DNA of 64,000 nucleotides from Struthio camelus (Eukaryota; Chordata; Aves; Struthioniformes; Struthionidae). Position 1 is the first letter of the stretch; the number at the start of each line of letters is the position of its first letter. A program made the translations under genes and the position numbers. Below are positions 7,792 to 64,000 of the stretch, piece after piece. The notes beneath the pieces are model-generated. The model was not told where the DNA came from, made no database searches, and was given only the letters and a program-made list of their open reading frames with translations. Location: contig NC_090956.1 in assembly GCF_040807025.1 (NCBI RefSeq), positions 1,724,517-1,788,516 on the forward strand. The letters are read 5' to 3'.

Positions 7792-8316
7792 GTGAGTGCC
7801 GCGGCGGCGGGGCCCGGTGCGCCGCGGCGGCGCCGGGGCCGGGGCCGGGGCTGGGGGGCGGCGGCGGCGCCGCGGGGAGGGAGCCGGGGCCGGGGGGCGG
7901 CGGGGCGAGCGGAGCCGGGCACCCCCCGCCCGGTGCTGGCGGGGCTCGGCCGGGTATTCGCCCCCCCCCACTCCCCGCCGGTGCCCGGCGCATCCCTGGC
8001 CCCCGGCGGCGCCTGCCGGTGCGGCGGGGCCGGGCCGACGTGCCCGGGGGGCGGCGGGGGGCGGCGGAGCGGCCCGGGCTGCGCGGTGCTCGGCGCTGCA
8101 GCCGCCGCTGCCGGCACCCCCAAAGCGGCCGCGGGGCCCCGGCAGCGGCCTCGCCGCCCTCGCCCGGGACCGGCCGCGTCCCCGAGCCCCGGCGAGCCAG
8201 GCCGGCCCGGGCCCGGGCCCGGCGCGGAGCGGGGCCGCGGCGAGGGTCGGGGCTCCGGCCCGGGGGCATCTGCGGACGTGCGTGTGTGTGTGTGTGTGTG
8301 TGTGTGCATGCACGGG

Positions 8317-8350
<34 letters not shown>

Positions 8351-8359
8351 ATGCACGGG

Positions 8360-8403
<44 letters not shown>

Positions 8404-8420
8404 ATGCATGCATGCACGGG

Positions 8421-8458
<38 letters not shown>

Positions 8459-8475
8459 ATGCATGCATGCACGGG

Positions 8476-8513
<38 letters not shown>

Positions 8514-8534
8514 ATGCATGCATGCATGCACGGG

Positions 8535-8574
<40 letters not shown>

Positions 8575-20500: not shown

Positions 20501-23500
20501 GCCGCCGCCGGCGCGGTCGTCCAGGCGCTGCCACGGCCGGGATCTGCTCCGTCAGCGGCGGCTCGGCCGGGAGCCGCCGGGACCGGGGACGGCTGGCGCT
20601 GGCTCTGCGCGGGTGCAGCATGCCGGCGGGCGCTTCGTGGCCCGGTGCCGGGCAGGGAGCCGCGGCCCCGGCGGGGCGGACGGGCCGGGGGAGCGCGCTG
20701 CGGTGGCTCGGCCTCGGGTGCCTTCCGGCAGCGCCATGCCCTGCTCCAAGCGAAGGCGTTCGGGAGAGTCGTAGCCGGGACGAGGTCCCCGCGGCGGCAC
20801 CCGCAGCGCTCCCGCAGAGCCCCGGGGGCCGGGCTGCGGGGAGGAGCCCTTGGGGCGGCCCCGGCCCCGGCGAGCCGGCTGCGTTCCCGCGCGGCGGCGG
20901 CGGCCGGCCGGGCTCCCCTCCCGCTCGTGCTCTTTGCCTTTTGCAGCCGGTGTTTGTAATCAGCCGAGCTCCCCGCCGCCTTCGCTCTGCCTCGGTTTCC
21001 CCTGCGGTTGCGTGCTGTTGCCGAGCTCTCTCGTGGCTGGCTGTCCCGGACGTGCAGCCTCCGGGGCAGCGCCGGGCGCTGCGGGGGCCCCCGCGCGGCG
21101 GGGCGCAGGGGCTCGCACCCGGCCCTGCTGCCGCCCCAGGCGAGGCGCCGAGTGGGGCGGCCGCGCTGGCCGCGAGCGCCGCGGGGCCTCCCCGGCGGCC
21201 GGGGGAGCTGCTTGCGATGGCTCCTTTCCTCGAGTGCTTGCAGGAGAACCGCGAGTCCCAGCTGGCACTGGGCATCCCTGTCCTTAACTGCTGTCAGTAG
21301 GTTTCAGAATCAACGCCAGCTCTAGCAGAGGGGCCGGGCTGGCTCCTGGCCCTCCTGAAGCAGCCTCGAGGGACGTGTTGCAGCAGGCCTGGGCCGGCTC
21401 TGAGACCGTGGCAGCGCTGACGGTCCAGCGGCGCCGGGGCCAGACCGGCCGGCGTTCGTCGTTTCGGCGCGGCAGCCGGGGCGGAGCGGGGCCGGGCGCA
21501 GGTCGGGGGCGGCCGAGGGGGCTCGGCCGGGCCGCCGCTGCCGCCGGCTGCGGGTGACGGGGCGCCGTGCTGGGCGCAGGGGAGCTGCGCGGGGCCGGCG
21601 CTCGCCGCGGCTGGGGCGCCCAGCGGGTCGCGGCGGCTGCAGGCGCGGCGGGGCGCGTTTCCCCGCGACGGCGTGTTCGAGTCCGGCGCTGGCGGCAAAG
21701 GCCCGGGCGCGGGGCTGCCCGGTGCAGCCTCCCTGCCTCCGGCCCGGGCCGCGCGCTGCTGCCGTTTGGTGTTAAAGAAGCCGCTTTTGGGGTTCGAAAC
21801 GGCGGATAATGAGCTGCTGGTTGGGAAGCGAGAGTTGAGCAACGTCTCCCTCCCTCCGCGGCGGAGCGGGCTGCCGGCGGCGGGTCTCGCCGGGCGCAGC
21901 GGCGGGCCGCGCTCCGGCGGCGGGCAGGCGGAGGGGCCCGGCGGGCCGTGCCGGGAGCTGGCCGGCGGCCCGTCCCCGGGCCGGGGCGGAAGACTGGAGG
22001 CACTGTTCGGTGCCCGCTGGCGGCCGCCGGGGCCTTTTGTCCCCGGGCGATTTGCATCTCCCGAGGCGGCTCTGCCCCTCTCGTGGGAGCGGCTAATTGG
22101 AGCGGGGCCGGCGGCGGGAGCGGAAGCGGCCGGGCGCCTCTCCACGGGCGCTGAAAGGCTCCATTGTGGCCGTGCTGGCAGCGGGCTCGGCCCCGCAGCC
22201 GGGGTCAGCGCTGGGGCCCAGCGCCCCTCCGGTGCCGGCAGCGCTGCGTCCTCCGGGCGATGCTGCCGCTGCCCCGCGCCCCAAAGGATGCCCAGACCCC
22301 CCCGACACCCCAAAGGATGCTCGGACCCCCCGGCGCCCCAAAGGATGCCCGGATCCCCCTGACACCCCAAAGGATGTCCGGACCCCCCACGCCCCAAAGG
22401 ATGCCCAGACCCCCTGGCGCCCCAAAGGATGCCCGGATCCCCTTGACACCCCAAAGGATGTCCGGACCCCCCCTGGTGCCCCAAAGGATGCCCAGACTCC
22501 CCGGGGCCCAAAGGAGGCCCGCACCCCCCCGGCACCCCAAAGGATGCCCAGACTCCCCCGGCACCCCAAAGGATGCCCAGACTCCCCCGACACCCCAAAG
22601 GATGCTCGGACCCCCTGGCGCCCCAAAGGATGCCCGGACCCCCCCTCGTGCCCCAAAGGATGCCCAGACTCCCCGGGGCCCAAAGGAGGCCCGCACCCCC
22701 CCGGCACCCCAAAGGATGTCCGGACCCCCCCGACACCCCAAAGGATGTCCGGACCCCCCGCGCCCCAAAGGATGCCCAGACCGCCCAGGTGCCCCAAAGG
22801 ATGCCCAGACCCCCCCGGCATCCCAAAGGATGCCCGGACCCCCCCCGACACCCCAAAGGATACCCGGATCCCCCTGGCACCCCAAAGGATGTCTGGACCC
22901 CCCGCGCCCCAAAGGATGCCCAGACCCCCTGGCTCCCAAAGGATGCCTGGATCCCCCTGGCACCCCAAAGGATGCCCGGACCCCCCCCGACACCCCAAAG
23001 GATGTCCGGACCCCCCGCGCCCCAAAGGATGCCCAGACCGCCCCGGTGCCCCAAAGGATGCCCAGACCCCCCGACACCCCAAAGGATGCCCAGACCCCCT
23101 GGCACCCCAAAGGATGCGCAGACCCCCCCCGACACCCCAAAGGATGCCCGGACCCCCTGGCACCCCAAAGGATGCCCAGACCCCCGACACCCCAAAGGAT
23201 GCCCGGACCCCCTGGCACCCCAAAGGATGCCCAGACCCCCGACACCCCAAAGGATGCCCGGACCCCCTGGCACCCCAAAGGATGCCCAGACCCCCGACAC
23301 CCCAAAGGATGCCCGGACCCCCTGGCACCCCAAAGGATGCGCAGACCCCCCCCGACACCCCAAAGGATGCCCAGACCCCCTGGCACCCCAAAGGATGCGC
23401 AGACCCCCCCCGACACCCCAAAGGATGCCCGGACCCCCTGGCACCCCAAAGGATGCCCAGACCCCCGACACCCCAAAGGATGCCCGGACCCCCCGACGCC

Positions 23501-25206
23501 CCGGGGGCGGAGCAGGGTCGGGCCGGCGCTGCCGTGGCCCCCGACACCCCGGGGCCGGCGCTGCCGCAGCACCCGGCCGCTCGGCTGCGGGCGCAGGGCT
23601 GCCTCATCTGCATGCAGATGGCCCCTCTCCTCTGCCAGCGGCTCTGCTCCTCCAGGCCGGGAATTTAAAATTCAATCAGGACTTAACGTGCTCTGAGGAG
23701 CTCTAATTAAGCGCAGGCTAGCTCGCAAAAGCTCAGGCCCTCGTTTCATTCGCTCGCTGCTCCTTGCTGCTGCAGCCAGACCTCAGCGGAGCTGCAGCGG
23801 TGCAACCCCTCGGCCCCATGCACCGGGGGCTGCGTGCGACCCAGGGGGCTGCGTGCGACCCAGGGGGCTGCATGCCACCCACCGGGCTGCGCAGGACCCA
23901 CGGGGGCTGTATGGGACTCGGGGCCAGTGTGGGACCCAGGGGAGCTGCGCGGGACCTGGGGGGCTGCACCGGACCCAAGGGGGCTGCGCGGGACCCAGGG
24001 GCTGCATGGTACCCAAGGGGTCTGTGTGGGACCCGGGGGTCTGTGCGGGACTCAAGGGGGCTGCACAGGACCCAGGGAGCTTTGCAGGACCCACAGGGCT
24101 TGTGCAGGACCTGGGGGGGCTGTGCAAGACCCAGGGGGTCTGCATGGGACCCAGGGGCTGCCTGGGACCCACGGGGGCTGTGCAGGTCCCAGGGGGGCTG
24201 CCTGGGACCTGGGGGATGCAGCATGGGACCCAGGGGCTGTGCAGGACCTGGGGGCTGTGCAGGACGTGGGGGGTTATGCAGGACCTGGGGGGCTATGTGG
24301 GCCCCGGGGGGCTGTGCGGGACCCGGGGGCTGGGAGCTGGCCGTGCCCCGCCGGGCCGGTGAGCAGAGGCAGGGCGCGAGGAGCGAGCGAGCCCTGGCGG
24401 GGCGGGGGGACGCCTTCTCCGTCGCTCCCACCCCGATTCGGCCTCCGCTTTCCCCCTTGCCTGGAGTCGCTCCCCCCCGCCCGCCGGGCTGTCGCCTGAC
24501 GAGCGCTCGTGCCCCAACTCGCGTTTCCTGCGGAGCCGCCGGAAGACGGCCGGCCTCCCCCTGGCGACGGCCTCCCCCGGGCGACGGCCTCCCCCGGGCG
24601 ACTGCCCCGGCTCGGGGGCACCTCGGGCGCTCCCTCGTCCCCGCCGGCTCCAGGCCCTGCGCCGCCGGCCCTTCGGCCTCCCTCCTCCTCCTCTCCCCCC
24701 CCAGGGATGCAGGGTTGCCATGGCGACTGCCGGATGTGCACGAGGATGCAGGGCTGGATCCGGGCAAGGCCCGGGGAGGGGGGCGCGGGGCTTGGCCGGG
24801 GGTCCTGCCCGCTCGGGGGCTCCCTGGGCCGCCGCTGCTCTCCTCCTCCTCGTTCAGGCCCGCGAGGACGAGCGCGTTGGTGGGAAAGCCTGCGCGGCGG
24901 TTGTGGGCGACCCCGTAGCTCTGGCCCCGTCCCTCATCGCTGCGCTAGCCGGGTCGCTCCCAGGTGCTTCAGCTTCCCCCGCGGCGGCGCGCGCTGCTCA
25001 CGAGCGCCGGCCCGGGCGAGGGCAGGGGGGACCCCGATCGGGGTGCGCGGCGGGAAGCTCTGGCCGTGCTGCCGACGGCACGGCCCCGGGCTCTGCAAGG
25101 GGCTGCTGCGGCCCCCGACGCTGCCGGAGCACCGATGCACCCGGGGCTCAGCTCCGGCCCTGCGCCCGGCCGAGACACATGCTGCCGCCGAGCCGCTGTC
25201 CTGGGC

Positions 25207-25263
<57 letters not shown>

Positions 25264-28200
25264 GGCGGCGGCGGCAGTGGTGGCAGCAGCAACAGCAGCA
25301 GCAGCAATGCCCCTTCTCCCTTTTGCATTTTCCCCTTCTCCCCGTTACCGTTCGTGTTAGTCGGTGCCGAGCTTGGCGCACCAGGGCCGCCGCTGATGTG
25401 CCCCCCAGAACGGGACGCCCCGCGTCACCGTCCCCTCTGGGGCTGGCCGGGGCGCTCTCCGGGGTTGCTCTGGGCAGGGCGAGCAGGGCGCTGGTCCCGA
25501 GCGGCGGTGCGGGAGCTTTTGCCGCTGTTTGCTTGCGCGGGGCCCGGGGAAGGGCGGTGGGTCCAGCCCGGCGGTGCGGGGCCAGCGCAGCGGCCTCCCC
25601 GTGCCAGTGGAAGTGCCCCGGGGACAGGCTGGCCGGGGCTGCCGCGGGGCCACCGGGAGGATGGCGGGACCAGCGGTGTCCCCATCCCTTCGCCGTGACT
25701 CTGCACAGGGGGAGCAGGAGCGCACTTCCTCGGGGCGCGTCCGGAAGGGCTTCCCTCTCCCCTCTCCCGCTCTCGGTCTCTGCCACCGACCAGCAGTGAC
25801 ACCTGCGTGCGTCCCCTGCGTGCGGGGAGCCCCGCTGCGGGGCTGCCACGTGCCGAAGCCGCGCGGGCAGGGTGCAGAAGTGGCGCTCTGGCTGCTCGGC
25901 CGTGCCCGGGGCTTCCGGGCCGGAGCAGCCCAGCGGCGCGTCGGCCGCGCTGCGCCGCCGGCCGGGAGCCCTCCTCTGGTCCGGCCGCGCCGCCCTCTCT
26001 GCCGCCCTCTCGCTCCCAGCGCAGAGTCGGGCCCCGGCTATTGCCCAGGGCGGGAGTTTTGCTGGCCGACTCGGGCGTCAGCCCGCGTGCTCGGGCAGGA
26101 CGAGCCCCGCTGGCTGCTTCCCGCCAGGCGGCGTGGCGGGAGCTGTGTCCATGCCCGCGTCTGTGCCCGCGTCGGTGCCTGCAGGAGGCTGCCGGGGCGC
26201 CCTGCAGCCTGCGTCCGAGCACGAGGCGGGGTCCCGGCGCTGCTCTCCATCCCTCCTCCGTCTCCTCCTTAACGTGCTTTCCCCTTTCTCTCTCTCCCAG
26301 AGCTCCTTGGATCAGCAAAGAAAGTTAACGTCAACTTCCAAGACACCGACGGGTGAGTGGGAGCCCTGCTCCCGTCGCGCGTGCCGCGGGCGCCACTGGG
26401 TGCAGCGAGCAGAGGTGCCAGTGCTGTAGCATGTAGCGAGCAGGCGTGCGGGTGCCGAGGTGTGCGGTGGGCAGACATGCAGCGGGCGGGCAGGTGTGTG
26501 CCGAGGCGTGCGGTGGGCACACATGCAGCGGGCGGGCAGGTGTGTGCCGAGGCGTGCGGTGGGCACACATGCAGCGGGCGGGCAGGTGTGTGCCGAGGCG
26601 TGCAGGAAGCAGGCGTGCAGTGAGCAGGTGAGTGTGTGCCAAGGTGTGCAGCAAGCGCGCGTGCGTGTGCCGAGGCGTGCAGCGAGCAGGCATGCGTGTC
26701 CCATGGCGTGCAGCGAGCAGGCGTGCGTGTGCCGAGGCGTGCAGCGAGCAGGCGTGCGTGTCCCATGGTGTGCAGCAAGTGAGTGTGCGTGTGCTGAGGT
26801 GTGCAGTAAGCAAGCGTGCGTGTGCCATGGCGTGCAGCGAGCAGGCGTGCGTGTGCCGAGGCGTGCAGCGAGCAGGCGTGCGTGTGCCACGGGGCCGTGC
26901 ACGGCAGCATGCAGCGAGCGGGAGAGCCACGTGCGTTTGTGAGGGGGTGCCCAGCTCCCTGGTGAGATGAAATCCAGCTCTTGGGGCTCTCGCCAATGAA
27001 TTGCTCGTTATTGCTTCCCGGCAGGCTTCTCCCCCTCCGGCTCGGGGGGCCTCTTTCCGCAGAGCTGCTCCTGCAGGGCAGCGGCTTCCCCTGCCGCAGG
27101 CGGAGCGGGATTTACCGCGGACGGGGCACCCTCCTGCTCGCGGGCGCCCGGCAGCCAGGGCCCTTCCCCGCCGCGTCCCCCGCGCCGGGATCCCAGCGGG
27201 GAACCGGTCTTCCCTCTCCTGCCCCTTAGCCGGCCAGAAGGGCTTTGCAAGCCCCCTCCCCTCTGCAACGCGCCCGGCTGCGTTCGCACCGGGCAGGCAG
27301 GGACATCAGAGGCGGCAGGAAGCCAGAGCTGAAAGGAAAATTAATAGCTGCGAAAAGCAGGCTCGTTATCTGCCCGGCCTCTTCCTGCTCTTGCTGCGGG
27401 TGCCGGGCTCTGATGGCGCTTTGTAGGCAACAGCCCCGCGCCGGCTCCCGTGGGGCGAGGGGGGCTGGCCGGCCGTGACCCGCCGGGCTGTGCCGGCGGC
27501 GCGCCGCTCCGGAGCCGACATCAGACGGGCGGCGAGCAGAGCCCGGCGCGCGCGGGGCAGGCAGCGACGGCCGTGCCCGGCGCCGCGGCCGGGGCAGCCC
27601 CGCGGGGACGGCCGGGGCTGCGGGGAGGCGGCGGGGTGGGAACGGCACGTGAGCGGAGAGGCTGGAGGCGGCCGGGGACGCGCAGCCAGGCAGCAGCCTG
27701 GGCTCCCTGCTCATCCTCGGCTCCCGCGCAGCGGCCTGCCGCAGCCGGCGCAGCCCGGCGGGGAGCCGGGCGCCGCCGGGGAGCCGGGGCGCAGCAGCGG
27801 GGCGGCGGGAGCGGGCGCCCTCTCGGTACCCGCCGGCGTGTCAGTGGATGCGTGCGTGCCGGCGTGCGTGCAAGCGTGCGCCTGTGCAGCGGAGCGTGCA
27901 TGTGCATGCAAGCGTGCATGCGTGCGCGGGAGCGGGAGCGCGCTGGGGCTGGCCGTGCCGGCTGCAGGCGGGCCGGAGGGCGCTCGCGTGGCTGCGGCGC
28001 TGGCAGGGCGAGGGAGCTCGTGGCCCCACGGACCCCCTTGCGCTGCGGCTGCGGGAGCCTGCGGGCTGCGCAGGGGGCTGCACGCCGCTGGGCCAGGCTG
28101 GGAACGCGGTTGACAGGCCCTGCGCTCGCTCCCAGCGAGGGACCAGGATGCTCGGTCTCCCCCGCCCCTGGCTGTGCCTCAGTTTCCCTGTCCCTTTGCT

Positions 28201-31200
28201 GTGCTTGCTGGCCCTCTGGCCGTGGGCGAGCGGCGCGCTGGTCTCGCTGCTGTTTGCACGGGGGACGCTGGCCTGCAAGTCGCGTGGCCTTTGCAAACGG
28301 CTCTGCAAACGGAGCCCCCGCAACAGCTCGGGGCACGGCTGCAATTTGCACCATCTTGAGCCGATTGGAGCAGGGCGCTGGAGCGGAAAACGTTGCCGTT
28401 TCCCAGGCAGACGTTTGGGATCAGCCTCCGGAGCGAGCTGTCTCGTGGCGCTGCGGCCCCCCCGCTGCGGCAGGGGAGTCACCGCCGCCGGCGCCTCCGT
28501 GGGGGACGCGGTGGCCAGACGGGGCCGGTCCTCGAGCAGGAGCGCTCGGCCAGCGTTCGCGGGCGACACGGGGTCGCCGGCCCGCCGCGGGCCGGGGGGC
28601 GGACGCGGGCCGTTCCCACGCTCGGTGAGCACCGAGGGGGCCCGGGGCCGGGCTGGGGCCGCCCGAGCCCGGCGCAGCCGAGTGGGCGCCGCCGGGAGGA
28701 GCGAGCGGGGCAGCGGCTGGCCGCTTCCTCGAAGCCCGCCGGGCAGCGGGGGCCAAGTGCCGGCTCCGTTTCCCAGCCCGCGGGCCCCCCCGGCGATGCC
28801 GGGCGCCCGGTCGAGGCGGCCGCTGTGCCGTGCAGCCATCTGGCGCCGGCCCCCCCGCGCTGCCCCGCGCCGCCGGGGAGAAGTGGGTCAGGCGGGGAGG
28901 GCGGCTGCCTCCCCGCGCCGGCCCAAGCCGCCCGCCCAGCGCCCAAACTCGCCCCCTGCCCCGGGGCTCCGGCCCCTCGGGGTCGCAGCGGTGCCGGCCC
29001 CTCGGGGACGCTCGGCCGGCGAAGGGGTTTCCCCGGGGATGCGGGGGCGGCGGGCGATGCCGGGTGGGGGCCGGCGGGCGGCGGAGCGCGGCGGAGCGCT
29101 TCGGCGAGGCTCGGCGGGCTGCGGGGCCGGCCGCAGGGCGCCGCGGCCCCCCTGACGCTGCCACTGCTGCCCCCCAGGTTCTCCGCTCTGCACCATGCGG
29201 CGCTCAACGGGAACACGGAGCTCATCGCCCTGCTGCTGGAGGCTCAGGCCGCTGTCGACATCAAGGACAACAAAGGCGAGTGCCCGCGGCTGCCGGAGAG
29301 AGGGGCCGGGGCCGGCTCGGCAGCGGCAGGGCCTTGGGGCGGGCGCGCTGTCTGGGTCGCGGGCGCCGGGGCAGGAGGCAAAGGAGAGCCATTGCCAGAG
29401 CAGCTCCCGAGCCCCTGCGGCGCTGCACGGACAAGGCTGCTCCATCCCGGCCGCGGTGCACGGAGGGAGGCTGCTCCATCCCGGCCGCGGTGCACGGAGG
29501 GAGGCTGCTCCGTCCCGGCCGCGGTGCACGGAGGGAGGCTGCTCCATCCCGGCCGCGGTGCACGGAGGGAGGCTGCTCCATCCCGGCCGCGGTGCACGGA
29601 GGGAGGCTGCTCCATCCCGGCCGCGGTGCACGGAGGGAGGCTGCTCCATCCCAGCCTCGGTGCACGGAGGGAGGCTGCTCCATCCCGGCCGCGGTGCACG
29701 GAGGGAGGCTGCTCCATCCCAGCCGCGGTGCACGGAGGAGGCTGCTCCATCCCAGCCGCGGTGCACGGAGGGAGGCTGCTCCATCCGGGCCGCGGTGCAC
29801 GGAGGAGGCTGCTCCATCCCAGCCGCGGTGCACGGAGGAGGCTGCTCCATCCCGGCCGCGGTGCACGGAGGAGGCTGCTCCATCCCGGCCGCGGTGCACG
29901 GAGGGAGGCTGCTCCATCCCGGCCGCGGTGCACGGAGGGAGGCTGCTCCATCCCGGCCTCGGTGCACGGAGGGAGGCTGCTCCATCCCGGCCGCGGTGCA
30001 CGGAGGAGGCTGCTCCGTCCCGGCCGCGGTGCACGGAGGGAGGCTGCTCCATCCCGGCCGTGGTGCACGGAGGAGGCTGCTCCATCCCGGCCGCGGTGCA
30101 CGGAGGGAGGCTGCTCCATCCCGGCCGCGGTGCACGGAGGGAGGCTGCTCCATCCCGGCCGTGGTGCACGGAGGGAGGCTGCTCCATCCCGGCCGCGGTG
30201 CACGGAGGGAGGCTGCTCCATCCCGGCCGCGGTGCACGGAGGGAGGCTGCTCCATCCCGGCCGCGGTGCACGGAGGGAGGCTGCTCCATCCCAGCCTCGG
30301 TGCACGGAGGGAGGCTGCTCCATCCCGGCCGCGGTGCACGGAGGGAGGCTGCTCCATCCCGGCCGTGGTGCACGGAGGGAGGCTGCTCCATCCCAGCCTC
30401 GGTGCACGGAGGGAGGCTGCTCCGTCCCGGCCGCGGTGCACGGAGGGAGGCTGCTCCATCCCAGCCGCGGTGCACGGAGGGAGGCTGATCCATCCCGGCC
30501 GCGGTGCACGGAGGGAGGCTGCTCCATCCCGGCCGCGGTGCACGGAGGGAGGCTGCTCCATCCCGGCCGTGGTGCACGGAGGGAGGCTGCTCCATCCCAG
30601 CCTCGGTGCACGGAGGGAGGCTGCTCCGTCCCGGCCGCGGTGCACGGAGGGAGGCTGCTCCATCCCAGCCTCGGTGCACGGAGGGAGGCTGATCCATCCC
30701 GGCAGGTGCCGTGGACCCCTTTGCAGTCTCCGCTGCCCTGCGGCTCACCACTGCGCTCGTCCCTCCTGCCCGCAGGGATGCGGCCCTTGCACTACGCTGC
30801 TTGGCAAGGCAAGAAGGAGCCCATGAAGATGGTGCTGAAAGCGGGCTCTTCGGTGAACATCCCGTCGGACGAAGGGCAGATCCCCCTGCACCTGGCGGCG
30901 CAGCACGGGCACTACGACGTGGTACGGCGGCGGGGCGCCGGGGCAGGCAGCGGGTGCGGGGGCCGTGGCGCGGCCGCGCTGCCCTCGCCGCGGTGCCCCC
31001 GCTGCGCCCGCAGCACGCTCAGGCCGCTCTCTCGCCCCCCCAGTCCGAGATGCTGCTGCAGCACCAGTCCAACCCCTGCATCATGGACAATTCGGGGAAG
31101 ACGCCGCTGGACTTGGCGTGCGAGTTTGGCCGGGTCGGGGTAAGTCCTTGCAACGCGGGGCCCTCCGGCAGGCAAGTTGGGCAGCGGCAGGGCGAGCTTC

Positions 31201-33222
31201 CCGGCCCGGAGCAGCCCTTGGGGAGGCCGCCGGGGAGGCGAGGGCCGGGACCGTGGGGCTGCGGGGACGCGGGGGCTGCCGGAGCCCCGGCAGGCAGCTG
31301 AGCTGTCTTTGCAGCCCTGCTCCGTCTGTGTTTGCTGATCCAGGTGGTCCAACTGCTCCTGAACAGCAACATGTGCGCGGCCCTGCTGGAGCCCAAGCCC
31401 GGCGACACCACCGACCCCAACGGCACCAGCCCCCTGCACCTGGCAGCCAAAAACGGGCACATCGACATCATCCGGTGAGCGGCCGGCGCCGCGGAGGGCT
31501 CTGCGGGCGCCGACGGCTCTCTCCGGCCGCCCGGCGCCTCGCTGACCCTCCCCGTGCCGCCCGCAGGCTGCTGCTGCAAGCCGGCATCGACATCAACCGG
31601 CAGACCAAGGCGGGCACGGCGCTGCACGAAGCGGCCCTCTGCGGCAAGACGGACGTGGTGCGGCTCCTGCTGGACGTAAGGGCCCTCGCGCGCGGCCCCG
31701 GCAGGGCGGCCGGGGCTGCCGAGCCCGAGGCGGGTCCCGGGGCCGGCGGGCAGCGCCGTGCCCAACCCCGTCTCCGCCGTTGCAGAGCGGGATCAACGCC
31801 CACGTGCGCAACACCTACAACCAGACAGCTCTGGACATCGTCAACCAGTTCACCACCAGCCAGGCCAGCAAGGAGATCAAGCAGATGCTGCGGGGTGAGC
31901 GCCGGCGGGGGCGGCCGCGGGGCAGGCGGCGAGCCCTGGCGCCCGCGGCCGGGCCGGCTCGGCGGCGCCCTGCAACGCCGCCCGCTCTGTCCCCGCAGAC
32001 GCCTCCGCCGCGCTGCAGGTCAGGGCCGTCAAGGACTATTGCAACAACTACGACCTGACCAGCCTCAACGTGAAAGCCGGGGACGTCATCACGGTGAGTG
32101 CCGGGGGCCGCCGGGGCGCCGCGGGGCTCCGCGGGGCCGGCGCCCTGCCCTCACGCCGCCTCCCGCCCAGGTCCTGGAGCAGCACGCGGACGGGCGCTGG
32201 AAGGGCTGCATCCACGACAACCGCACCGGCAACGACCGCGTCGGCTACTTCCCCTCCAGCCTCGTCGAAGCCATCAGCAAGCGAACAGGCAAATACCCGC
32301 CCCGTCCCCGCCGCGCGCACCGCCCCGGCGCGGGGCTGGGGCCGGCTCCCCGGCCGGCTGCAACCGTCCCGCCGGCTCCGGCGGGCTCCGGGGGGGCCGG
32401 CGGTGGCGCTGCGGGGCGGTGTGCGGAGGGCGGCGGGGGCGAGGGGCCGCCGGCTGCGCCGCCGCGGCCGTCGCGGGCCGGTGGGGCCGCGCAGTGCGAG
32501 GAGGCGGTGCGAGCCGCTGCCGCCCCCGGCGCCCGCCGCTGCCCGGCCCGCGCTCCCGCTCCTGCTCCCTGGCTCGCCTCTGGGCCTCCGTTCCGGCTTC
32601 TCCCCGTTTCTTCGCTCGCTTCTTCCGTTTGCTGCTGGTTTTTTTGGTTTTTTGGTGTTTTTTTTTTTGTTTTTTTTTTTGGTTTTGGTTTGGTTTTGGT
32701 GGCGCTGAACTCGTCTCTATTATTTTGATTCTTTTCATTTTGTCTCTTGTTATGTTTTATTATCAGGTTCATGGGAGACTGTAACAATCCCCCAACAGTA
32801 CCAAAAGATCCCGCTCCCGGCTTACGGGGCTGCTGTGCTAAACGGTGACGCCTCGTGCCATCCGTTCCATTCCCTGCCTCCACCTCCACCTCCACCTCCA
32901 CATTCCCATCAGACTCTTTTCAGTTCCTTTGGCTATCACAGGCTCTCCCCTAGCAGTGCCGACGAGCCGCGTTACGGACAAGGTAGTTCACCGCTCGCTT
33001 CATACTTTCGATGGATTCCTTCCTTCCTTCCCTCCTTCCTTCCCTCCTTCCTTCCCTCCTTCCCTCCTTGTTCGTTCTTTCTTTCTTTCTTTTTCCTTTT
33101 TTAGTGTGTATATCTATTCTTTCCTTTCTGTTCGGCTTCTCTCCCCTTTGCCTTGGTGCCTGCCGTGTGTGTGCACGCAGGTGCGTGTGTGTGCATGCAG
33201 GCGTGTGTGCGTGTGCACGCAG

Positions 33223-33291
<69 letters not shown>

Positions 33292-36200
33292 GGCACGTGT
33301 GCATGCAGACCTGTGCGTGTGCACATGTGCGTGTGTGTGCACACCCAGGTGCGTGTGTGTGTGTGCATGCAGGCGTGTGCGTGTGTGCGTGCATGCAGGG
33401 GTGTGTGTGTGTGCATGCAGGGGTGTGTGTGTGCATGCAGGGGTGTGTGTGTGTGTGTGTGTGCGCACACATGCAGGTGTGAGCATACAGACGTGTGTGG
33501 ATGCACGTGTGTGAGCATTGATGAGTGTGTGCATGCATGCGCCCGTGCATGTGTGTGTGTGTGTGCACGTGCATGCAGGCGTGTGCGTGTGCGTGTGCGT
33601 GTGCAGGTGCGTGTGCGTGCAGGCGTGTGCGTGCAGGCGTGTGGGTGCGTGTGCATGCCAGCGGACCCCCTCCCCTGCACTCCCCTGGCCTGAGCTGCTG
33701 CAGCATTAGCGCGGCACACGGCTCGGCTGCGGCCGGCCCCCCCGCCCCGCCGCGGGCGTCCCCGGCTGCCAGGCAGGTCTGGGGCAGCGCTGCGCCCCGG
33801 CCCCGGCCCCGGCTCTGCAGAGGGCCCAGGCGCGACGGCAGGTTGCGCCTGCCGTGCCCGGGGAGGTAGGGACGCAACAGCCCGCTGCGGTTGGTGCCGC
33901 GGGAACGGCAGCCCCGGGGGCGCATGGAGCCGCGCGGCCGCGGCCTCCGGCACGGGAAGCGGCGTTCAGCAGCCAACGAGCGTCTCCGGTTGCGGCTGGC
34001 GCGGCGCCTGGGTGCTGCCGCGCTGGTGCCCACGCGGGGCGGCGCGGGCGTGGGTGCTGCCGCGCTCGGTGCGGGATAAAGGCTTCGGCGGCCCGGCCGG
34101 GCTCGGTGCAGGGCGTTGCTGCGCCGCGGCGCCGTGGGGTGCAGGCGAGCGGCGCTGCCGTTGCCTTCGGAGGTCCAGCGGTGCCGGGCAAGAGACGGGA
34201 AAGCTTTTGGCCGAGGTTGGCGCTGCGCGTCGGGCCGCGCAGGGCTGCGCTCGCCCGCTCCGGCCGGCTGGCGGTCACCGTCGCTTGCTGCCAGCTCGGG
34301 CGCCGCCGGCGAATTTATCACCTTGCGCCGTCTGCCCCGTGCTGCAGCCCGGCCGCTCGGAGCGCCTGGAGGAGGAGGAGGAGCAGGTGCCGGGGGCTCA
34401 TGGCAGGCCAGCCCGCGCCCCGCACCCTGCGCCGCCGCCGCCGCGTGCCGCCGGCCTCGGAGCCCTGGGGCGAGAGCGGCGCGCTGGCGGAGCGGGGTCT
34501 CGTCCGGTGCCCGGCGCCCCGGGGCCGGCCGGCTCACGGCCGCTCTCTCCGCTCTGCCCCCAAGGTTCGCGCGGGGCCGACGCCAGCCCGTCCCACCTCT
34601 CCGCCTCGCAGGGCGGCCCGGGCGCCGCGCCACCTCCCGCCGAGGAGATCTGGGTGCTGCGGAAACCCTTCGCAGGTAGGGCGGCGGGGCCTGCGCCCCG
34701 CGCGCGCGCGCCCTGCGGCCGCCTCCGGGCCCCGGGCGAGCCTGACGGCGTCTCCTCCCCGCGCGCAGGTGCCGACCGCAGCAGCCTGGGCAGCACGGGC
34801 AGCGGGGCCAGCGCCCGCAGCTCGGGCAGCGGGCAGAGCGCCGGCAGCGGGGCGCACGCCCTGCACGCCGCCTCCGAGGGCGTCAAGGTAAGGCGGCCGC
34901 CCGCGGCGGCGCTTAGCTCTCCCGGCAGCTGCCAGGGCTCCCAGGCCGCCCCGGCTCACCCGGCGCCCCTGCGCCCGCTGTCCCCCGCGCCCCTGCCCGG
35001 CCGCCGAGCCCGTGGCAGCGCAGCACGCGGCCGAGGCCGGAGTCGCGTAGCTCTGCTGCCTCTCGCAGGGTGTCTCTTCGCACTGCGCACTGCACGGTGC
35101 GTGCTGCGCGCTGCCAACTGCACGTCGCCCAGCACCCGTTGCAGATGTGCACAGCTCGCTGCTGCCTGCCCACTGCATGGTGCACGGTGTGCACTGCATG
35201 CTGCCAGCTGCACATCACCCAGGGCCCGTTGCAGCTGCGCACAGCTCGCTGCCACCTGCCCACTGCATGGTGCACGGTGTGCACTGCATGCTGCCAGCTG
35301 CACATCACCCAGGGCCCGTTGCAGCTGCGCACAGCTCGCTGCCGCCTGCCCGCTGCCCGGTGCACGGTGTGCACTGCATGCTGCCAGCTGCACATCACCC
35401 AGGGCCCGTTGCAGCTGCGCACAGCTCGCTGCCGCCTGCCCACTGCATGGTGCATGGTGTGCACTGCATGCTGCCAGCTGCACATCACCCAGGGCCCGTT
35501 GCAGCTGCGCACAGCTCGCTGCCGCCTGCCCGCTGCCCGGTGCACGGTGTGCACTGCATGCTGCCAGCTGCACATCACCGCCGCGCTGCAATGCCCGCTG
35601 CCCCCCGCACCCTCCCCGGCGTGGCGCCCCGCGTGCTCCCAGCCTGCGGCGGCAGCCTGGGCCCTCGCTGCCAGCCCGCGCTGGCAGGCACCGCCGGCGT
35701 GCGTCAGGCTGCCTTCGGGTGCCGCCGAGCCGCGGGCTCCCGCCGCCTGCGAGGCGCCATCTGTGCTGCGAGCGGTGCCGCTCGCCCGCCGCTGCGCCCC
35801 TCCCTGCCCGCCCGCGCCGCCGGGCTGCAGCGGCAGCGGCCCCCAGCCCGCCGGCCGCCCGCTCCCCTCACTCCTGCCTCTGCTCCCCCTCCTCGGCGTG
35901 TTTTTTCAGCTGCTGGCGACGGTCCTTTCCCAGAAGGCTGCTGCGCAAGAGACTGCCGTGGGCGATGGGCCGGCCAAGGCGCAGGACGTCCCCGCAGGTG
36001 CGTGGCCACCGGCGGCCCCGCGGCGCGCACCAGCGCTAGCCCCGGCCCTGCCCGGGCCTTGCCGGGGATGCAGTGATTTGTCTTGTTTTTTTTTTTGATT
36101 GCCACGGCACCGGTCGCAAGAAGAAAAACGTGTGGGTAAAAAATGACTCTCTCGCCTTTCGGCTGCTGCCAGGCCTTCTCCTGCCTCGGTTAGTGGGGGC

Positions 36201-39200
36201 ACGGCGGGGGGCGGCGGGCGGCGGGCGGCGGGCCGGCAGCGCTCCAGCCCGGCCCCTTCCCTTCCCTTCCCTGCCCTTCCCTGCCCTTCCCTGCCCGGCC
36301 GCTCGCCGGCCCGGCCGGGCTCCGCCGCTGCCCGCGCCGCCCGGGCAGGCTCTGCGCCGGGGGTCCCGGCCGGCTGCCCGCGCCGCGGGGCTGCCCACGC
36401 CGGGGGGCGCGCGGGGGCGACGCGCACGTGGGCGATGCACGCGCCAGGGGGACACACGTGCCGGCGGGGGGGGGATGCTGTGTTTGCAGAGAGGCGCGTG
36501 GCGGCGGCGGCGGCGGGGGGGGGATGCACATGCCAGGGGGATGCATGGGCGAGAAGGATGCCCATGCAAGGGGGTTGCACACGCGAGGAGGAAGCACACG
36601 CAAGGGGGATGCACACGCAAGGGGGCTGCACATGCAAGGGGGCTGCACACGCAAGGGGGATGCACACGCAAGGAGGAAGCACACGCAAGGGGGATGCACA
36701 CGCAAGGGGGTTGCACACGCAAGGGGGATGCACACACAAGGGGGATGCACACGCAAGGGGAATGCACATGCAAGGGAGATGCACACGCAAAGGGGATGCA
36801 CACGCAAGGGGGATATACACACACACAGAGCAGGCACACGCAAGGAGGAAGCACACGCAAGGAGGAAGCACATGCAAGGGAGATGCACACGCAAGGAGGA
36901 AGCACACGCGAGGGGGATGCACATGCAAGGAAGAGGCACGCACTGGGGTTGCACAAGCAGGAGATGCACCCAAGAAGGGGTTGCACATTGCAGCAAGGGG
37001 AGAGGGTTGCTCTTGTCGGTCTGATGGGAAGCTCCAGGCAGAGATTTCCGGACAGCCCTTGTGACCCCTCGGGGCCCGCAAAGGCTGCCGGGGCGGCCGG
37101 CCTCAGGGTGGGAGCTGTGGGGCTAGCAGGGCCCCTGCTGCGGGGTGCCGGAGACGAGGCAGTTGTGCAGCGTCCTCGCCGGAGGGGCGGTGGGGTGGGC
37201 AGTGCCTGGGTGCGCGGCACAGCCGGAGGAGCAGAGAGCGGCGGGTTTGGGCAGCAGGAGCCGCTCAGGCCGTGGCCTCGGGGGTGCAGGGAGCCCCACA
37301 AACCGGCTCCAAGGAGGCCGGGACCCTCCGCTCCGGCCCGCGGGCACTGCAGCCCCCGGCGCTGCAGGTGCCGCCGGCACGAGGCTGCAGCACGGCCGGC
37401 GAGTGCCCCACGGCACCGCGGCGTCCTCCTGGGTGAGCCGCCGGCCCCTCGCTCGCGGGATGCGCCCTGCGCCGCGTCCGCTCCCGAGTGCCGGGATCGG
37501 ATGGGCCCCGGCCGCGGTGCAAGGTGCCGCCTCGCTGTGACGCCCTGGGTGAGCCCGGCGGCGGGCGGGCGTCCCACGGCCCCTGCGGCGCCGGCACCGG
37601 CCCCGCTGCTGCCGTGTCCCTCCTGCGCAGGAGCTTTGCCCCCAGCACGGAGCCCAGCAGCCCGGCGACTCGGCTCGCGCGCACCGGGGCCGGGACGCCT
37701 TGGTGGGAGGCAGCGGGGCCCAGCGGCCCTCGCCCCACCGAGGACGGGCCCCGGCCCCGTGCTGACGGGTCCCTCTCCCCCGCCACCCAGGTTCGTCGCG
37801 GACGCAGAGCGTGGCCAGCTCCCCGTACGCCCCCCAGCCCCCGGCAGAGCAGCAGCTGAAGAAGATGGAGTCGATGTCGGAGGGGAAGGTGAGCACGGGG
37901 CTTGGCGGAGCGCGGCAGGGGAGCTGGCGGGGTCCGGCATGGAGCCAGCGGGGAGCGCGGGGCCGTGGGGCAGCCCTCGCTGTGCACCAGCGCTCACCAT
38001 GCACCGGCCCTCACCGTGCACGGACCCTCACCGTGCACCGACCCTCACCTCGTGCACCACCCATCACCGTGCACCGACCCTCACCTCGTGCACCACCCAT
38101 CACTGTGCACCAACCCTCGCCCTGTGCACCAGCCCCCACCGGGCACCAGCTCTCGCCGGGCACCGGCCCCCCACCATGCACCGGCCCTCACTGTGCGCTG
38201 GCCCTCGCCGTGCACCAGCCCTCGCCGTGTACCCTGCAGCCGTGCAGGAGCCATGAGTCACCAGCGTGAATCATCCCTGCGGCTGCTGGGGCTGCCGCCA
38301 GCTGCGCCAGCCTCCCACCGCCCCGGCCCTGGGGACCCGCCTGTCCCCGGGGATGTGCCATGCGGGGTGGCCTGAGCCGCGGGGCCGAGCAGTCCTGCTC
38401 GCTGCCGCCTCTAAGCCAGGGCCGCGCTGCCAGCGCGTGCACTGGTCCGGGGGCAGCCTGCCGTGCCGGGGGGTCCCCGTCCGGCACGTGCGCCCCGGAG
38501 CAGCCAGGAGCCCCGGGCTCCCCCAGCGCGCTGGCTCTGCGGGGCGTCCCCAAAGAGAAGCGGGCCGTGGGCCCCGTGGCGGCGGGCGGGGAGCGCGACT
38601 GCCCTGAGCCGTGCCGCTCGCAGAGCTCCGAGGCCGTGTACCAGTGGCTCTGCAAGTTCCAGCTGCAGCTCTACGCGCCCAACTTCATCAACGCCGGCTA
38701 CGACATCACCACCATCAGCCGCATGACGCCAGAGGTGAGGGCCGGGCGGCGGGCGCGGGGAGGGGGACGAGGCCGGTGGCGGTGACCCACCTTTCTGCCC
38801 TAGGACCTCACGGCCATCGGCGTGACCAAGCCAGGGCACAGGAAGAAGATCGCCTCCGAGATCAACAACCTCAACATCCCCGAGTGGCTCCCGGAGTACA
38901 AGCCGGTAAGGGCTGTGCCGGTCCCCAGACCTGCCCCGGCCATGCTTGGGGCCCCGTCCCCACTGTCCCCCTGTCCCCGCACTCCCGGAGAGGGGCTGCG
39001 CAGGGGGAGGTGACGCCAGGCGCTGGCTCCCCGCTCCCAGCTGGTGCCCGCATCCCACGGCTCCCAGCGCTGCGTGTGCACGTCAGCTCCTGACAGCTCG
39101 GGGGCTGGCGCCAGCCGTCACCACTTGGATGTGACACTGCATGTTCCCCCCACCATCCCCAACACCTCACCCCATGCCAGTGCATCTGGGGGGGACCTGG

Positions 39201-42200
39201 GAGCCCCGGGAAGGGGGCTGGAAATGGTCCAGGAGGGTCCCAGGAGCAAAGAGACGACCTGAGGATGGCAGAACCCCCCTTGGGGCCATCCTGGCTGGAG
39301 GAGGCACCTGCATGGGACCGGGTGCACCATAGTGTTGGTGCTCAGCCCGAGTCCTGCGAGGGGCAGGGAACCGTCGGCCAGTTATAACCTGTCCTCCCAC
39401 ACAGGCCAACCTGGCCCTGTGGCTCTCCATGATCGGCCTGTCCCAGTACTACAAGGTGCTGGTGGAGAATGGCTATGAGAACATCGACTTCATCACAGAC
39501 ATCACGTGGGAGGACCTACAGGAGATTGGCATCACCAAGCTGGGTAAGGCCCAGCCCCTCAGCACCGCGCGCTCCAGCTTCTCCCCGTTCCTTGGCCTTG
39601 GCCGGGGCTCGATGTCCAGGGCCGGCCCTCGCCATGACCCACCCCGATGCCGCATGCTGTCCTCAGGCCACCAGAAGAAGCTGATGCTGGCGGTGAAGAA
39701 GCTGGCAGAGCTGCAGCGGGCCGAGTTCGGCAAGTACGATTCGGGGACGCTGAAGAAGAAGGCGCCGCCGCCGTCGCCAGAGGTGCTGGCCATCGAGTCG
39801 CCGCCCCCGGAGCCGCCCGAGTGCCAGTCACCCAAGATGACCACCTTCCAGGACAGCGAGCTCAGCAACGAGCTGCAGGTGGCCATGACGGGCTCGGGTG
39901 AAGGCCCCGAGGAGCCCGCCGAGAAGCAGGCCAACCACGTGGCCCACGTGCGGGAGGCCTCCGGCTACCGCTCGCCCTCGGGCCGGCACGCTCCGGACAG
40001 CGGCCTGGGCAGCCGGGCCAAGCACATAAGCAGCTCGCAGGAGCTGCTGGGCGACGGCCCCAAGGTGCCCAGCGCCGCCATCTCCAAGAGCCAGGAGTAC
40101 CTGGCGGAGGAGGCCAAGGAGGGTCCCCCGGGGCCACCCAAGGAGGTCCGGCCCCTGCGGCACGGCCACACCGTCAAGCGCGCCAGCGTGCCGCCGGTGC
40201 CCGGCAAACCCCGGCAGTCCTTCCCGCCCTCGGCCGGGCACTTCACGCCGCCGCAGACCCCCACCAAGCCGCGGCCCGCCTCCCCCCAGAGCCTGCTGGT
40301 GCCCCACGCCACGGCCAAGGTGAAGCCCACGCCGCAGCTGCTGCCGCAGGCCGAGCGCCCCATGTCGCCCCGCTCGCTGCCCCAGTCGCCCACCCACCGC
40401 GGCTTCGCCTACGTGCTGCCGCAGCCGGCGGAGGGCGAGGGGCCGCCGCCGGGGGTGCCCGTGCTGCCCGTGTCGGTGCCCGTGCTCTGCCTGCCGCCGC
40501 CGGGCGAGGGCGAGGAGGAGCCGGGGCGGCCCAAGAAGCGGGCGCACAGCCTCAACCGCTACGCCGTCTCCGACAGCGAGCAGGAGCGGGACGAGCTGCT
40601 GGTGCCGGACGCGGGGCCCTACGCCACGGTGCAGCGCCGCGTGGGCCGCAGCCACTCGGTGCGGGCCCCCTCGGGCGCCGACAAGAACGTCAACCGCAGC
40701 CAGTCCTTTGCCGTGCGCCCCAAGAAGAAGGGGCCGCCGCCGCCCCCGCCCAAGCGCTCCAGCTCCGCCATGTCCAGCGCCAGCATGGCCGAGGACTTCC
40801 CCAAGGAGGGCGAGGGCGAGGCGGCGGCCGGCCCCGCCGGCGAGGACGACGAGGCCCGAGAAAGCTACCGGGAGCAGCGGCGGGCCAGCGACTTCGGGGG
40901 CAGCGTGGACACGGGCAGCGCGGGCAGCGTGAAGAGCATCGCGGCCATGCTGGAGATGTCCTCCATCGGCGGCGGGGCCCGGGCGCTGGCCTTGCAGAAG
41001 CCGCACGGGGCCGGCGGGCCGGGGCCGGCCAAGGGGCCCGACGGCTACTACCTGCAGCCGGGGCCGCCGCCGGGCAGCCCCGAGCGGGCCCGCGTGGCCA
41101 CCGTCCTGGCCACGGTCAAGCACAAGGAAGCCATCGGGTTGGACGGGGAGGTGGTCAACCGGCGCCGGACCATCAGCGGCCCCGTCACCGGGCTCATCGC
41201 GGCCGCCCGCCGCGAGCGCTCCGACAGCGTCAAGTCGGACACGGGGGCGGACGGCCCCGCGGAGCGGCTGCGGGCCGAGCACGGGGGCTCCCCCCGCGAC
41301 GGCTCCTCGGAGAGCATCCCCTTCGCCGAGGAGGGCGCCCTCACTATCAAGCCGCGGCCGCGGCCCCTGGGGCCGGCCAGGCCGGAGGCGGGCGAGGGGC
41401 TGCTGCCCGCCCACCGCCACGGCGACCTGGCCAAGGTGGAGGCCAGCGCCACGCTCAAGCGGCGCATCCGGGCCAAGCAGAGCCAGCAGGACAGCGTCCG
41501 CTTCATCCTCACCGAGTCGGACACCGTCAAGCGCCGGCCCAAGGCCAAGGACAAGGAGCCGGCGCTGGAGCCTTCCCCGCTCGCCGTCTACCAGAACGGC
41601 ACCGGCACCATCAAGCGGCGGCCGGGGGCTGAGCCCGGCGGGGCCGAGCCGCCGCCAACCCCGCCGCCCGCCGCCGCCGGCCCCGAGCTCGCCCCGCCGC
41701 CCGCCGCCGCCGAGCCCAAGAGGCCCTTCAAGCCGCCCGTGTCGCCCAAGCCCGTGCTAACGCAGCCGGCGCAGAAAGTCCCCGGGCCGCCAGCGCCCGC
41801 CCCCAAAAAGGTGCCCATCCCCGGCCCCGGCAGCCCAGGTAGGTGCCCGGCGGCGGTGGGAGCCGGCCGCCCGCGGTCCGCCCCCCTGCCCGGCGCGGCG
41901 GCCGCCTTGCCCCACGCCCGTCCCCTTCTCTCCGCAGAGGTGAAGCGGGTCCACGGCACGCCGCCCCCGGTGTCCCCCAAGCCCGCGCCGCCCCCCACGG
42001 CGCCCAAGCCCCCCAAGCCCCACGCCGCCATCCAGTCGGTGAGCGCCGGCTCCACGCCGGCCCCGTCGCCAGCCAAGCAGCTCGGCGCCGCCATCAAGCC
42101 CTCGAGCACGCCGCCCTCGCTCTGCTCCAGCCCCGCCAAGCCCCTCTCGCCCGGCGGGCCGCCCCAGCAGGTGCCGGTGAAGCCGCCGCGCTCCGCCATC

Positions 42201-43304: not shown

Positions 43305-45240
43305 GGGGCGGGCGGGCCCCGGCCAACCTCAGGGCTCACGTGGGCACAAGGGCACAACGATCCGCGTCCCCCGGCCCCGCCGCCGTCCCCGCTGTACAGC
43401 CCGCCCCCCCCCAACCCCTCCGCCTGCCCCATCCCTCGGGGTTTGCACAAAGAAGAAGATACCTCAGGATTGTGCTCACGGGCTCGGCGCCCGCCCGCCG
43501 CCGCGCCAAGCCTCCGGCAGGACTCCACTTTGCAGAAGCAAAAAAAAAAAAAAAAAAAAACAAATCACAACACAACCACAGAAGGAACAAAGCAACACGA
43601 TGCAGCCCAAAAACGCCTCCCTCGCTCACCGCGTTTCGGGACGGGGTGATGGGGGGGGGTCTGGGTTTTGCTTTTTTGTCTCTACCTACCTGCCGCGCGG
43701 CCCCGGGGCTGCCGCCGGCGCGTGCTGCCCCTCGCCTGGTGGCGCCAGGCCGCGGCCCTGCGGAGCTGGGCTCGTGGCCGCTCCACTCGGGCAACTTCGC
43801 TTTCTTTCTTTTTTTTGGTTTTTTTTGTTTTTTTTTTTGTTTTTTGTTGTTTTTAATTTCCCTTCTGTTTGCAGTTGCTGCGGGAGCACGGGGGGCGCGA
43901 GCCCGTGGGGCGGCTTGCCCGGTCCCGGCCCCGGCCCCGGTGGCAGCGCGTGGCGTCTCCGCTTCGGGCACGGGGAGGGGGGTCGTGGGTTGTTTGGTTT
44001 TTTTTTGGGTTGTTTTGGTTGAAAATCGGCAGCGAAAGTCACGTTTCGGCGTGGGGCAGCGCCCAGCGCCCGCCCCGCGCCACTCGCTGCCCCCGCGCCA
44101 GCGGGGAGAGGACAGTTATAAGCTATAAAGAAGTATTAATTTATTGGAGGGGAAGAAAAGAAAAAAAAGATATAAAACAGATTTCCCCCACCCACCCCCC
44201 AAAAAGATAATAAAAAGAATAAACTTTAACAAATATATATTTAAAAGATTTAAAAATATTAGCAATTATATATAAAGCAGTTTAAAAAAAAATCAAGAGA
44301 AACTGGATTTTAGCTTGAGAAAAAACTATTAGACTATACTAAGCTGTGTGTCTTGTGGCAAACTCATTCTAAGAGTAGCACAAATATATACCTTTTATCT
44401 CGTCGGAAGGTACGTGCAAACAGTTCTGTTTGGGTTTTTCTGTTCGAATTCAGTGTAACTTTATTTTTACACAGTTAAGAACTCAAAGGATGTGCCTTGT
44501 TTTATGGAGGTTTTTGTTAACTCTTATACTGAAGGTGTTTCATTTATTTTGGAGTGTCTTCAGGTTCTGATTTTCTTTGGTTTGTTTTTTGGCATTTGTT
44601 CTGTGCGTGCGTGTGTGCGTGTGCCCGCGTGCGTGTGTGCGTGTGCGCCGGGGTGCTCCCTGGGGCGCACAGCTGTATATTCATGTATAAACAGGAGTCG
44701 GAGTCTGGTTCAGTCGCTTGAGGTCCGATGAATGCATTTTTTTGCTTGTGGTTTCAAGACAAAGTGTTGGTGTACTTTTCTTTTCTTGAGACGTACAGAC
44801 TGGTCTCTCTCGCTCTCTCTCTCTCTCCTGTTGTGTTCGCTGATCCAGATGTGTTTGGCACAACTTTGAAATTTCTTTAAAAAAAAAACAAAAAAAGACT
44901 TTAAAAATAACAAAAAAAACCCCACCCGCCTGAAAATATCTGTTCAAAAGAAAAAATATGTATCTTAAAAAAAAATCCATAAAGTTCTACATGATGGATA
45001 TATACATATATATTTTTTATGATTAAGTTATGGACTCTGTATTGTATCCCATCTGTCAAGCTATGCATCTTGGTGCTTTTCCCTGCTCTTCTGTGCTTAG
45101 ATTTCACCTCTACTCGTCTTATTCTTCCTATTCTGAATAGTAGATGGCTCGTGGTGCTGTGAAGAAGTTTGCTCCTATACAAAGTCTGGCAACAAATATT
45201 TAAAGAAAAATAAAAAAAAATAAAATCCCGCCGGCTGCCA
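43305..45240 (+). other. CASKIN1: CASKIN1 3' UTR
   Basis: GC-rich for the first 200 bp, then A20 at 43541-43560, several T/G-rich runs (43800-43860, 43995-44025, 44575-44590), and AT-rich sequence from 44100 on. Candidate poly(A) signals occur near 44209, 44218, 45209 and 45219. A long AU/GU-rich 3' UTR with several polyadenylation choices is likely. Confidence 0.75.
45209..45224 (+). terminator. CASKIN1: CASKIN1 distal poly(A) signals
   Basis: Two AATAAA hexamers (45209-45214 and 45219-45224) occur where AT-rich sequence ends and GC-rich DNA resumes. Earlier AATAAA copies at 44209 and 44218 may serve a shorter form. Confidence 0.6.
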
Positions 45241-45950
45241 CCGCTGTTTGTGACCAAAACCCCCGAACCGCCGGCCGTCACGCGCCCGGGACCCCACGTG
45301 CGCGCTGGGGGCTGGCGGGCGGCGCGGGAGCGGGCCGTGCCGGGGCGCGGAGCATCGCTGCCCTGGGCTGCCGCTGCCCGGCTGCGGGCCCGGACAGGAG
45401 CGGCGGCGCTGCGGCAGCCGGCCGCCCCGGCTCTAGCTGTTGGGGGGAGCCGCCGTCCCCGCTGGAGCCCACCTCGGTGCCGGGTCCGCTCTGGCCCCCT
45501 GCCGCGCGTGGGGTTCGCCTGTGGTCGGTCCCGGCTGCCGTGGTGCTCTGGCCTCTCTCGTCCGACTGGGTCTCTCGCCGGCAGGAGCAGAGATGAGCAT
45601 CGCCTCTCGGGGACCAGCTCGCCCAGCTTCGCGCCCGGGGACGCTTCAGGTCACTGCAGCAGTTGTTTTACAGTGTATCGATGAGAAAGACATCAACGCG
45701 CTTATTACAGGAGGAGGAGGTAAATCACTGAAATTAAAAAGCATGCAGGCAACCACCAGCCTCATTTTTCACAGCCGCTGCCATCGCTGTCCCTCCAGGG
45801 CCCGGCGCAGAGGAGCTAAGCACTGCTCTTGGCAGCAGCTCCGGGCTGGAAGGGCCTGGGGCTGGAAAGCAGGTGACTGCGGCAGGATGGCTGCTGGCAG
45901 CCGGCTCCCACCGAGGGCCTGCCACAGGGCCCGCAATAACTCACGCTAGC
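45241..45950. other. GC-rich spacer between convergent CASKIN1 and TRAF7 ends
   Basis: About 700 bp between the two poly(A) sites. It includes a stretch with splice-like borders (45674-45719, after TTGTTTTACAG and before GTAAAT) that I cannot connect to any gene. Confidence 0.6.
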
Positions 45951-46766
45951 CAGGAACAACTCTTTCCACTTTTATTGTCAATGAAGAAATAATCAAATCT
46001 ATATTACAATCTTAAAAACAGTAGAAAATGTGAGTAAAAATGCAACGGAGGCTTTTTCTCTTTAATGTGGAGACCATTATTACAGGGTGATGAACAATGG
46101 ACTTGTGTTACTTGATTTGAGAACTAGCTGTGGCATAAAAATCGTACCTGGCTACTCAAGAAAACACCTCTTCCCAGATGGATCAGCCTGACATCTTGGC
46201 AGTAAAATTAAATACTAGAGACAGAAAGGGGTTGGGGACCCAACCCAGGGCAAGGCCTAATAGTTCTACCATTTACAAAGGGACCAGCATCCCAGCGCTC
46301 GTCCCCCTCGACAGGCCGGCTCCTGCCCGCGACAAGCTGAACCGTTCAGTCCTGCCGTCGGCCGAGAGCCACACTGCTTTCGCACCAGTGCTGCACGGGG
46401 CTGCATGTGGACTGGAGCCCTGGCTTCGCAGCCAGCCCCCTCACTCCAGAGGATGCTCCCCACTTGTAGAGAGGAAGAGACACAGTGGAGAAGGCGGCCT
46501 TGGCACCAAACCAGCTTCTGCTACAGTTCCAGTTAAATATGGCAGATCTGAGGGACATCTGGGGATCCTCGGGCCAAAACCATCTTGGGAGCTGCCAGTC
46601 GGGGTCCCTACGGGTGGGGAGACTGGCCAACGGGAGGCAGCAGGCAGTGGTCGGTGCGGGGCAGGAGCTGCAGCAGTTATTTCGTAGTGGTGTTAGTCAC
46701 CCAGCAGGCCGATGGAGGGGAGGCGTTTTTGGTCTTTCAGTGTGCAGGACTAGCGTGGTACTCTCA
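45951..46766 (-). other. TRAF7: TRAF7 3' UTR
   Basis: About 800 nt lie between the TAG stop (46767-46769) and the poly(A) site, on the minus strand, with ordinary base composition. Confidence 0.7.
45971..45976 (-). terminator. TRAF7: TRAF7 poly(A) signal
   Basis: TTTATT on the + strand reads AATAAA on the minus strand, the first such hexamer after the TRAF7 stop codon. Confidence 0.65.

Positions 46767-64000
<17,234 letters not shown>

Follow-up and report, generated by a model that had tools for sequence, protein, structure and literature searches.

The stretch of ostrich (Struthio camelus) DNA considered here, 64,000 nt in all and referred to as the window, lies on a 23-Mb contig of a genome searched as 1.45 Gb in 262 contigs, and carries the CASKIN1 gene on its + strand. 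By our own reading the first exon, read from MGKDQELV, would start near 7662; exons from ~26303 to 43308 are supported by alignment with CASKIN2 (C19) from this genome. For the SH3 region the match to Caskin-1 (PDB 7aty, E 3.8e-17) is stronger than that to Caskin-2 (2ke9, E 4.2e-12), and the CASK-interaction domain (CID) containing EEIWVLRK scores 83.5 bits against PF16600, for a cut-off of 30. A SAM domain (PF00536, 43.9 bits), SAM_2 and the Caskin proline-rich region (PF16907, 113.4 bits) are likewise above their cut-offs, and the Caskin tail (PF16632, 32.4 bits) falls just below its cut-off of 35. Beyond the 3' end of CASKIN1 the GC content drops, to 0.39-0.59 over 44001-64000 compared with ~0.67-0.79 upstream of 44000. 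Long minisatellite arrays with units of 17 to 122 nt occupy the upstream flank and introns of the gene, at 5402-6486, 16392-17755, 18627-19822, 22272-23502, 29413-30703 (38 copies of 34 nt with 95% matches), 35091-35579 and 36519-36930.

Four exons on the + strand frame the region of interest. The first SH3 exon (31999-32093) is placed by its CASKIN2 match and splice scores, and the second (32171-32288) by the match to 7aty and by an end common with CASKIN2; a Pfam search with this second exon by itself returned no SH3 match. The CASK-binding exon with EEIWVLRK (34565-34675) has phase 1-1, and the next exon (34769-34889) holds the remainder of the CID, the PF16600 match covering both.

A candidate exon between the SH3 and CASK-binding exons

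Within the intron that separates the second SH3 exon from the CASK-binding exon lies a candidate cassette exon (32767-32982, + strand) of 216 nt, encoding 72 residues. An earlier note had proposed it from the sequence, and the boundaries, the acceptor TTATCAG|G, the donor AAG|GTAGTT and the length that it gave all match the DNA. Its assertion that the segment could be included or skipped without a frameshift also holds, the phase being 1-1 and the joined readings open both ways: the exon ending at 32288 leaves one codon base, and the candidate restores and leaves the identical phase. Only the frame that this upstream exon requires is open, the other five containing 2, 2, 2, 2 and 5 stops. A T-rich tract and AG acceptor precede the candidate (32620-32766; GC 0.27-0.38 per 60 nt), with successive values of 0.27, 0.37 and 0.38 over 32620-32799 compared with 0.88-0.90 over 32320-32559. 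Inside it, (CCTCCA)4 at 32877-32900 encodes the eight prolines that the earlier note had described, which together with the preceding leucine read LPPPPPPPP. The donor GTAGTT is followed by TTCC/TTTC pyrimidine repeats (32983-33160) and then by a TG-rich minisatellite region (33164-33658). A 411-nt DNA query places once in the genome, in a search that passes over simple repeats and words of very high frequency; the candidate is single copy and therefore not a dispersed repeat, and a repeat origin is unsupported.

On the splice-site matrix that supplied all splice scores given here, the acceptor of the candidate scores 10.7, above four neighbouring CASKIN1 acceptors (6.4-7.2, including 6.4 for the CID exon). 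It does not rank first within the gene, as the best AG near ten further CASKIN1 exon starts ranges from 3.9 to 13.9. Its donor, without G at +5, scores 6.6. Across the whole window, 19 of 4202 AGs equal or better this acceptor and 85 of 2837 GTs this donor. The donor upstream, at 32288, is a GC (CAG|GCAAAT), a feature that the earlier note missed, and scores 2.8 versus 9.8 and 8.9 for two other CASKIN1 donors, the latter that of the CID exon. The place of this exon end is secure, because the CASKIN2 exon stops at the same codon, with GT. GC-AG junctions make up ~0.8% of splice sites in human and mouse protein-coding genes, and in both species the genes that carry them tend more to be alternatively spliced (PMC7242645). 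The weak GC donor lends some support to reading the candidate as a cassette exon.

Motifs that might govern inclusion surround the candidate. Five TCTT lie at +94 to +136 beyond it, and 11 TGCATG lie at +210 to +670, all inside the TG-rich minisatellite region. A similar array at 8305-8684, also within CASKIN1, contains 14 more; of 57 TGCATG counted along the + strand of the whole window, these two separate arrays thus supply 14 and 11. Because the motif belongs to the minisatellite, its count was given little weight for RBFOX control, an argument downweighted further by the like array.

Composition, codon usage and chance

The candidate sits in a complex block (32670-33059) with a GC content of 0.50, the lowest among complex clusters defined by GC up to 0.60 and complexity of 90 or more (next lowest, 0.56). 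Such ordinary composition within a GC-rich or repetitive intron had been taken to suggest constraint. That argument proves weak: with GC up to 0.62 and complexity of 95 or more, 16 other clusters without a known exon occur over 7600-43400, and low GC was for this reason not accepted as proof of constraint. Merged to 15, none of these clusters contains an equally good candidate exon, and two do so at looser cut-offs. Nine low-GC, complex clusters with no known exon are scattered over 8820-18659, probably in the first intron, and are possible regulatory elements.

Codon usage was scored on a human codon table. The open frame of the candidate, at -0.214 against a best of -0.189, comes third among the six; its value is reached in 22% of 5000 shuffles, and removal of the octaproline leaves the frame third. 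The coding frame came first in all seven control stretches from CASKIN1 and CASKIN2, just narrowly in the CASKIN2 linker exon, with one control stretch (39401-39700) containing an intron near 39546-39662. The candidate hence shows no coding signal by codon usage, a feature that is not strictly defining in a short proline-rich exon.

How often an equally good exon might arise fortuitously depends on the space searched, and in each case the cut-offs were the candidate's own splice scores, chosen after it had been seen. Over the whole window, in phase 1 and at lengths of 45-400 nt, three candidates of this standard or better, 32767-32982 among them, appear on the + strand and none on the - strand. 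The other two are a segment outside the gene (4787-4966, + strand), scoring at least equal to the cut-offs, and a 372-nt segment made of simple repeats of the same intron (33105-33476, + strand), scoring above 32767-32982. At lengths of 150-330 nt, a limit that excludes the 372-nt segment, and in all three phases over 7800-43300, 32767-32982 is the sole sense candidate and there is no antisense one; looser cut-offs (9 and 6) over the same range yield six sense and three antisense candidates. When the intron was block-shuffled, 25 of 300 copies (8.3%) contained an equally good candidate of at least 180 nt, and the segment itself, shuffled 5000 times, remained open in 16.8% of cases. The candidate exceeds chance only partly.

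Paralogue, peptide and possible partners

The 72-residue peptide (14 Pro, 9 Ser, 5 His and 5 Gln) has no Pfam match of its own. Against the rest of the genome the matches listed (39, with E up to 10) are weak, the best at E 0.01, and among them no retrocopy or second copy with the exon was seen. No relatives were confirmed in viral and prokaryote contigs, and an orthologue could not have surfaced in any of these searches. A literature search on Caskin1 splicing, isoforms, microexons, novel exons and the paralogue brought up no report of such an exon among the papers listed, and one with pieces of the peptide found no match. In the Caskin papers searched by term, 'splic' is absent and 'isoform', where present, refers to Caskin2; in PMC7350591, which combines Caskin1 with alternative splicing, Caskin1 appears only as a table entry.

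CASKIN2 possesses a linker exon (L014, minus strand, 8481-8663; 183 nt) that resembles the candidate in lying directly after the SH3 exons, in its phase of 1-1 and in being proline-rich. Tempting as it is to take it for the candidate's counterpart, the two are no more alike than shuffles (local z -1.1, a score equalled by 91% of 3000). A slightly better alignment with it is given by the CASKIN1 CID exon (local z 2.1, 4% of 3000 shuffles; global, 7%), so the CASKIN2 linker exon may instead correspond to that exon, minus its CASK-binding motif. No EEIWVLRK segment was seen in it, and the Caskin1-CID match that CASKIN2 keeps (L019, C19:8398392-8398481; profile positions 9-38, 37.7 bits) sits in the exon that follows. 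The CASKIN2 linker exon also has two in-frame acceptors 36 nt apart, scoring 9.0 and 9.8, such that it may start at 8663 (183 nt) or further upstream (219 nt), making a 12-residue alternative possible.

As the earlier note had it, 26 residues separate the insert from EEIWVLRK; the linker from the SH3 domain to EEIW grows from 26 residues to 98 with the insert. The Caskin1-CID match itself is almost equal without and with it (83.5 and 83.2 bits), and an effect on the CASK interaction through linker length is possible. Changed SH3 interactions, the other consequence proposed at the outset, are disfavoured: human Caskin1 SH3 is described in parts of PMC7830187 as having no canonical proline-binding groove, making it unlikely that the octaproline would bind the protein's own SH3 domain.

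A different class of partner may be considered. LPPPPPPPP fits the Ena/VASP EVH1 core [FWYL]PX(hydrophobic)P, with LPPPP at residues 37-41 and further prolines after, and the best PDB match of the peptide, though insignificant (E 0.12), is 7lxe. That structure represents EVH1 ligands of the FP4/FP8 type, in which ABI1 carries FPPPPPPPP (PMC8789275, in part); the candidate motif is similar, but leucine replaces phenylalanine and acidic flanks are absent. In the same sections extra prolines are reported to raise the affinity of ABI1 for Ena/VASP EVH1, and the LPPPP of PCARE is, in its own context, the tightest ligand known to those authors. LPPPP generally binds more weakly than FPPPP, as given in part of PMC4165403. 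The core motif is common, with 4,994 instances in the human proteome (PMC8789275, in part), and had no match in a 975-residue CASKIN1 reading from SAM2 to 42332, which passes through the intron near 39546-39662. Caskin1 is reported to bind Abi2 via its proline-rich region (passages of PMC7830187 and PMC3549760), which would make a link to actin plausible.

Competing readings and their meaning

We consider it probable, by a modest measure, that some CASKIN1 transcripts include 32767-32982 as a real, symmetric cassette exon; the evidence that it is a real exon at all is moderate. The cassette exon first put forward draws strength from the splice-site and phase anatomy, to which the weak GC donor upstream can be added, and gains nothing from codon usage. 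Its most serious competitor, which we regard as unlikely while giving it appreciable weight, is a pseudo-exon: intron sequence in which convincing splice sites and an open frame arose by chance, and which is not spliced in. The frequency of equally good candidates in shuffled introns and of open frames in shuffled segments would fit this, as would the absence of a coding signal with the octaproline in or out and the higher score of the repeat-made segment in the same intron. Against it stand the exact phase fit, the want of a second candidate of 150-330 nt as good on either strand and in any phase across 7800-43300, and the tightness with which the complex low-GC block brackets the candidate, with simple repeats just outside.

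The segment might otherwise be real in another sense. Were it an exon that almost every CASKIN1 transcript of this lineage contains, rather than an alternative one, its acceptor, stronger and closer than that of the CID exon, would be readily understood, and CASKIN2 has a proline-rich phase 1-1 exon at the corresponding place; that exon, however, is not detectably similar, and the weak GC donor upstream together with a candidate donor lacking G at +5 speaks against near-constitutive use, which we think very improbable. We attach very little probability to the segment being a non-coding element under conservation, or what is left of a lost exon, with the composition kept for a non-coding reason. 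The other low-GC complex clusters and the codon usage would accord with such an origin, but none of the merged clusters holds an equally good candidate exon, and a relic would be expected to have lost its frame or splice sites.

If the cassette exon is real, its inclusion could be decided at the weak GC donor at 32288, which would choose between a near, strong acceptor (32767) and a far, weaker one (34565). Repressors of the PTB type might bind the pyrimidine-rich repeats that flank the exon, and RBFOX might bind the UGCAUG sites between +210 and +670. Skipping would yield the standard CASKIN1 protein, and inclusion would add 72 probably disordered residues, lengthening the SH3-CID linker from 26 to 98 and bringing in LPPPPPPPP, which could recruit Ena/VASP or profilin. 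A more specific proposal is that regulated splicing in neural tissue gives one CASKIN1 isoform an Ena/VASP docking site, the ABI1-like LPPPPPPPP, directly ahead of the CASK-binding segment, which would tie the CASK-neurexin scaffold to actin polymerisation; we regard it as improbable.

Symmetric alternative cassette exons in the linkers of neuronal scaffold proteins form a general class. The candidate is like its members in having a length divisible by three, the same phase at entry and exit, a Pro/Ser-rich peptide without a Pfam match and pyrimidine-rich flanks, and differs from them in being a prediction from genome sequence. If real, it would add one more case to a common type and would establish no new principle. 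Mice that lose both CASKIN1 and CASKIN2 are impaired in novelty recognition and spatial memory, as reported in PMC6856520. A real exon would mean a longer CASKIN1 isoform whose CASK-binding segment is carried by a linker nearly four times the standard length, and which also bears a possible docking site for actin regulators; it would thus constitute a control point in a synaptic scaffold.
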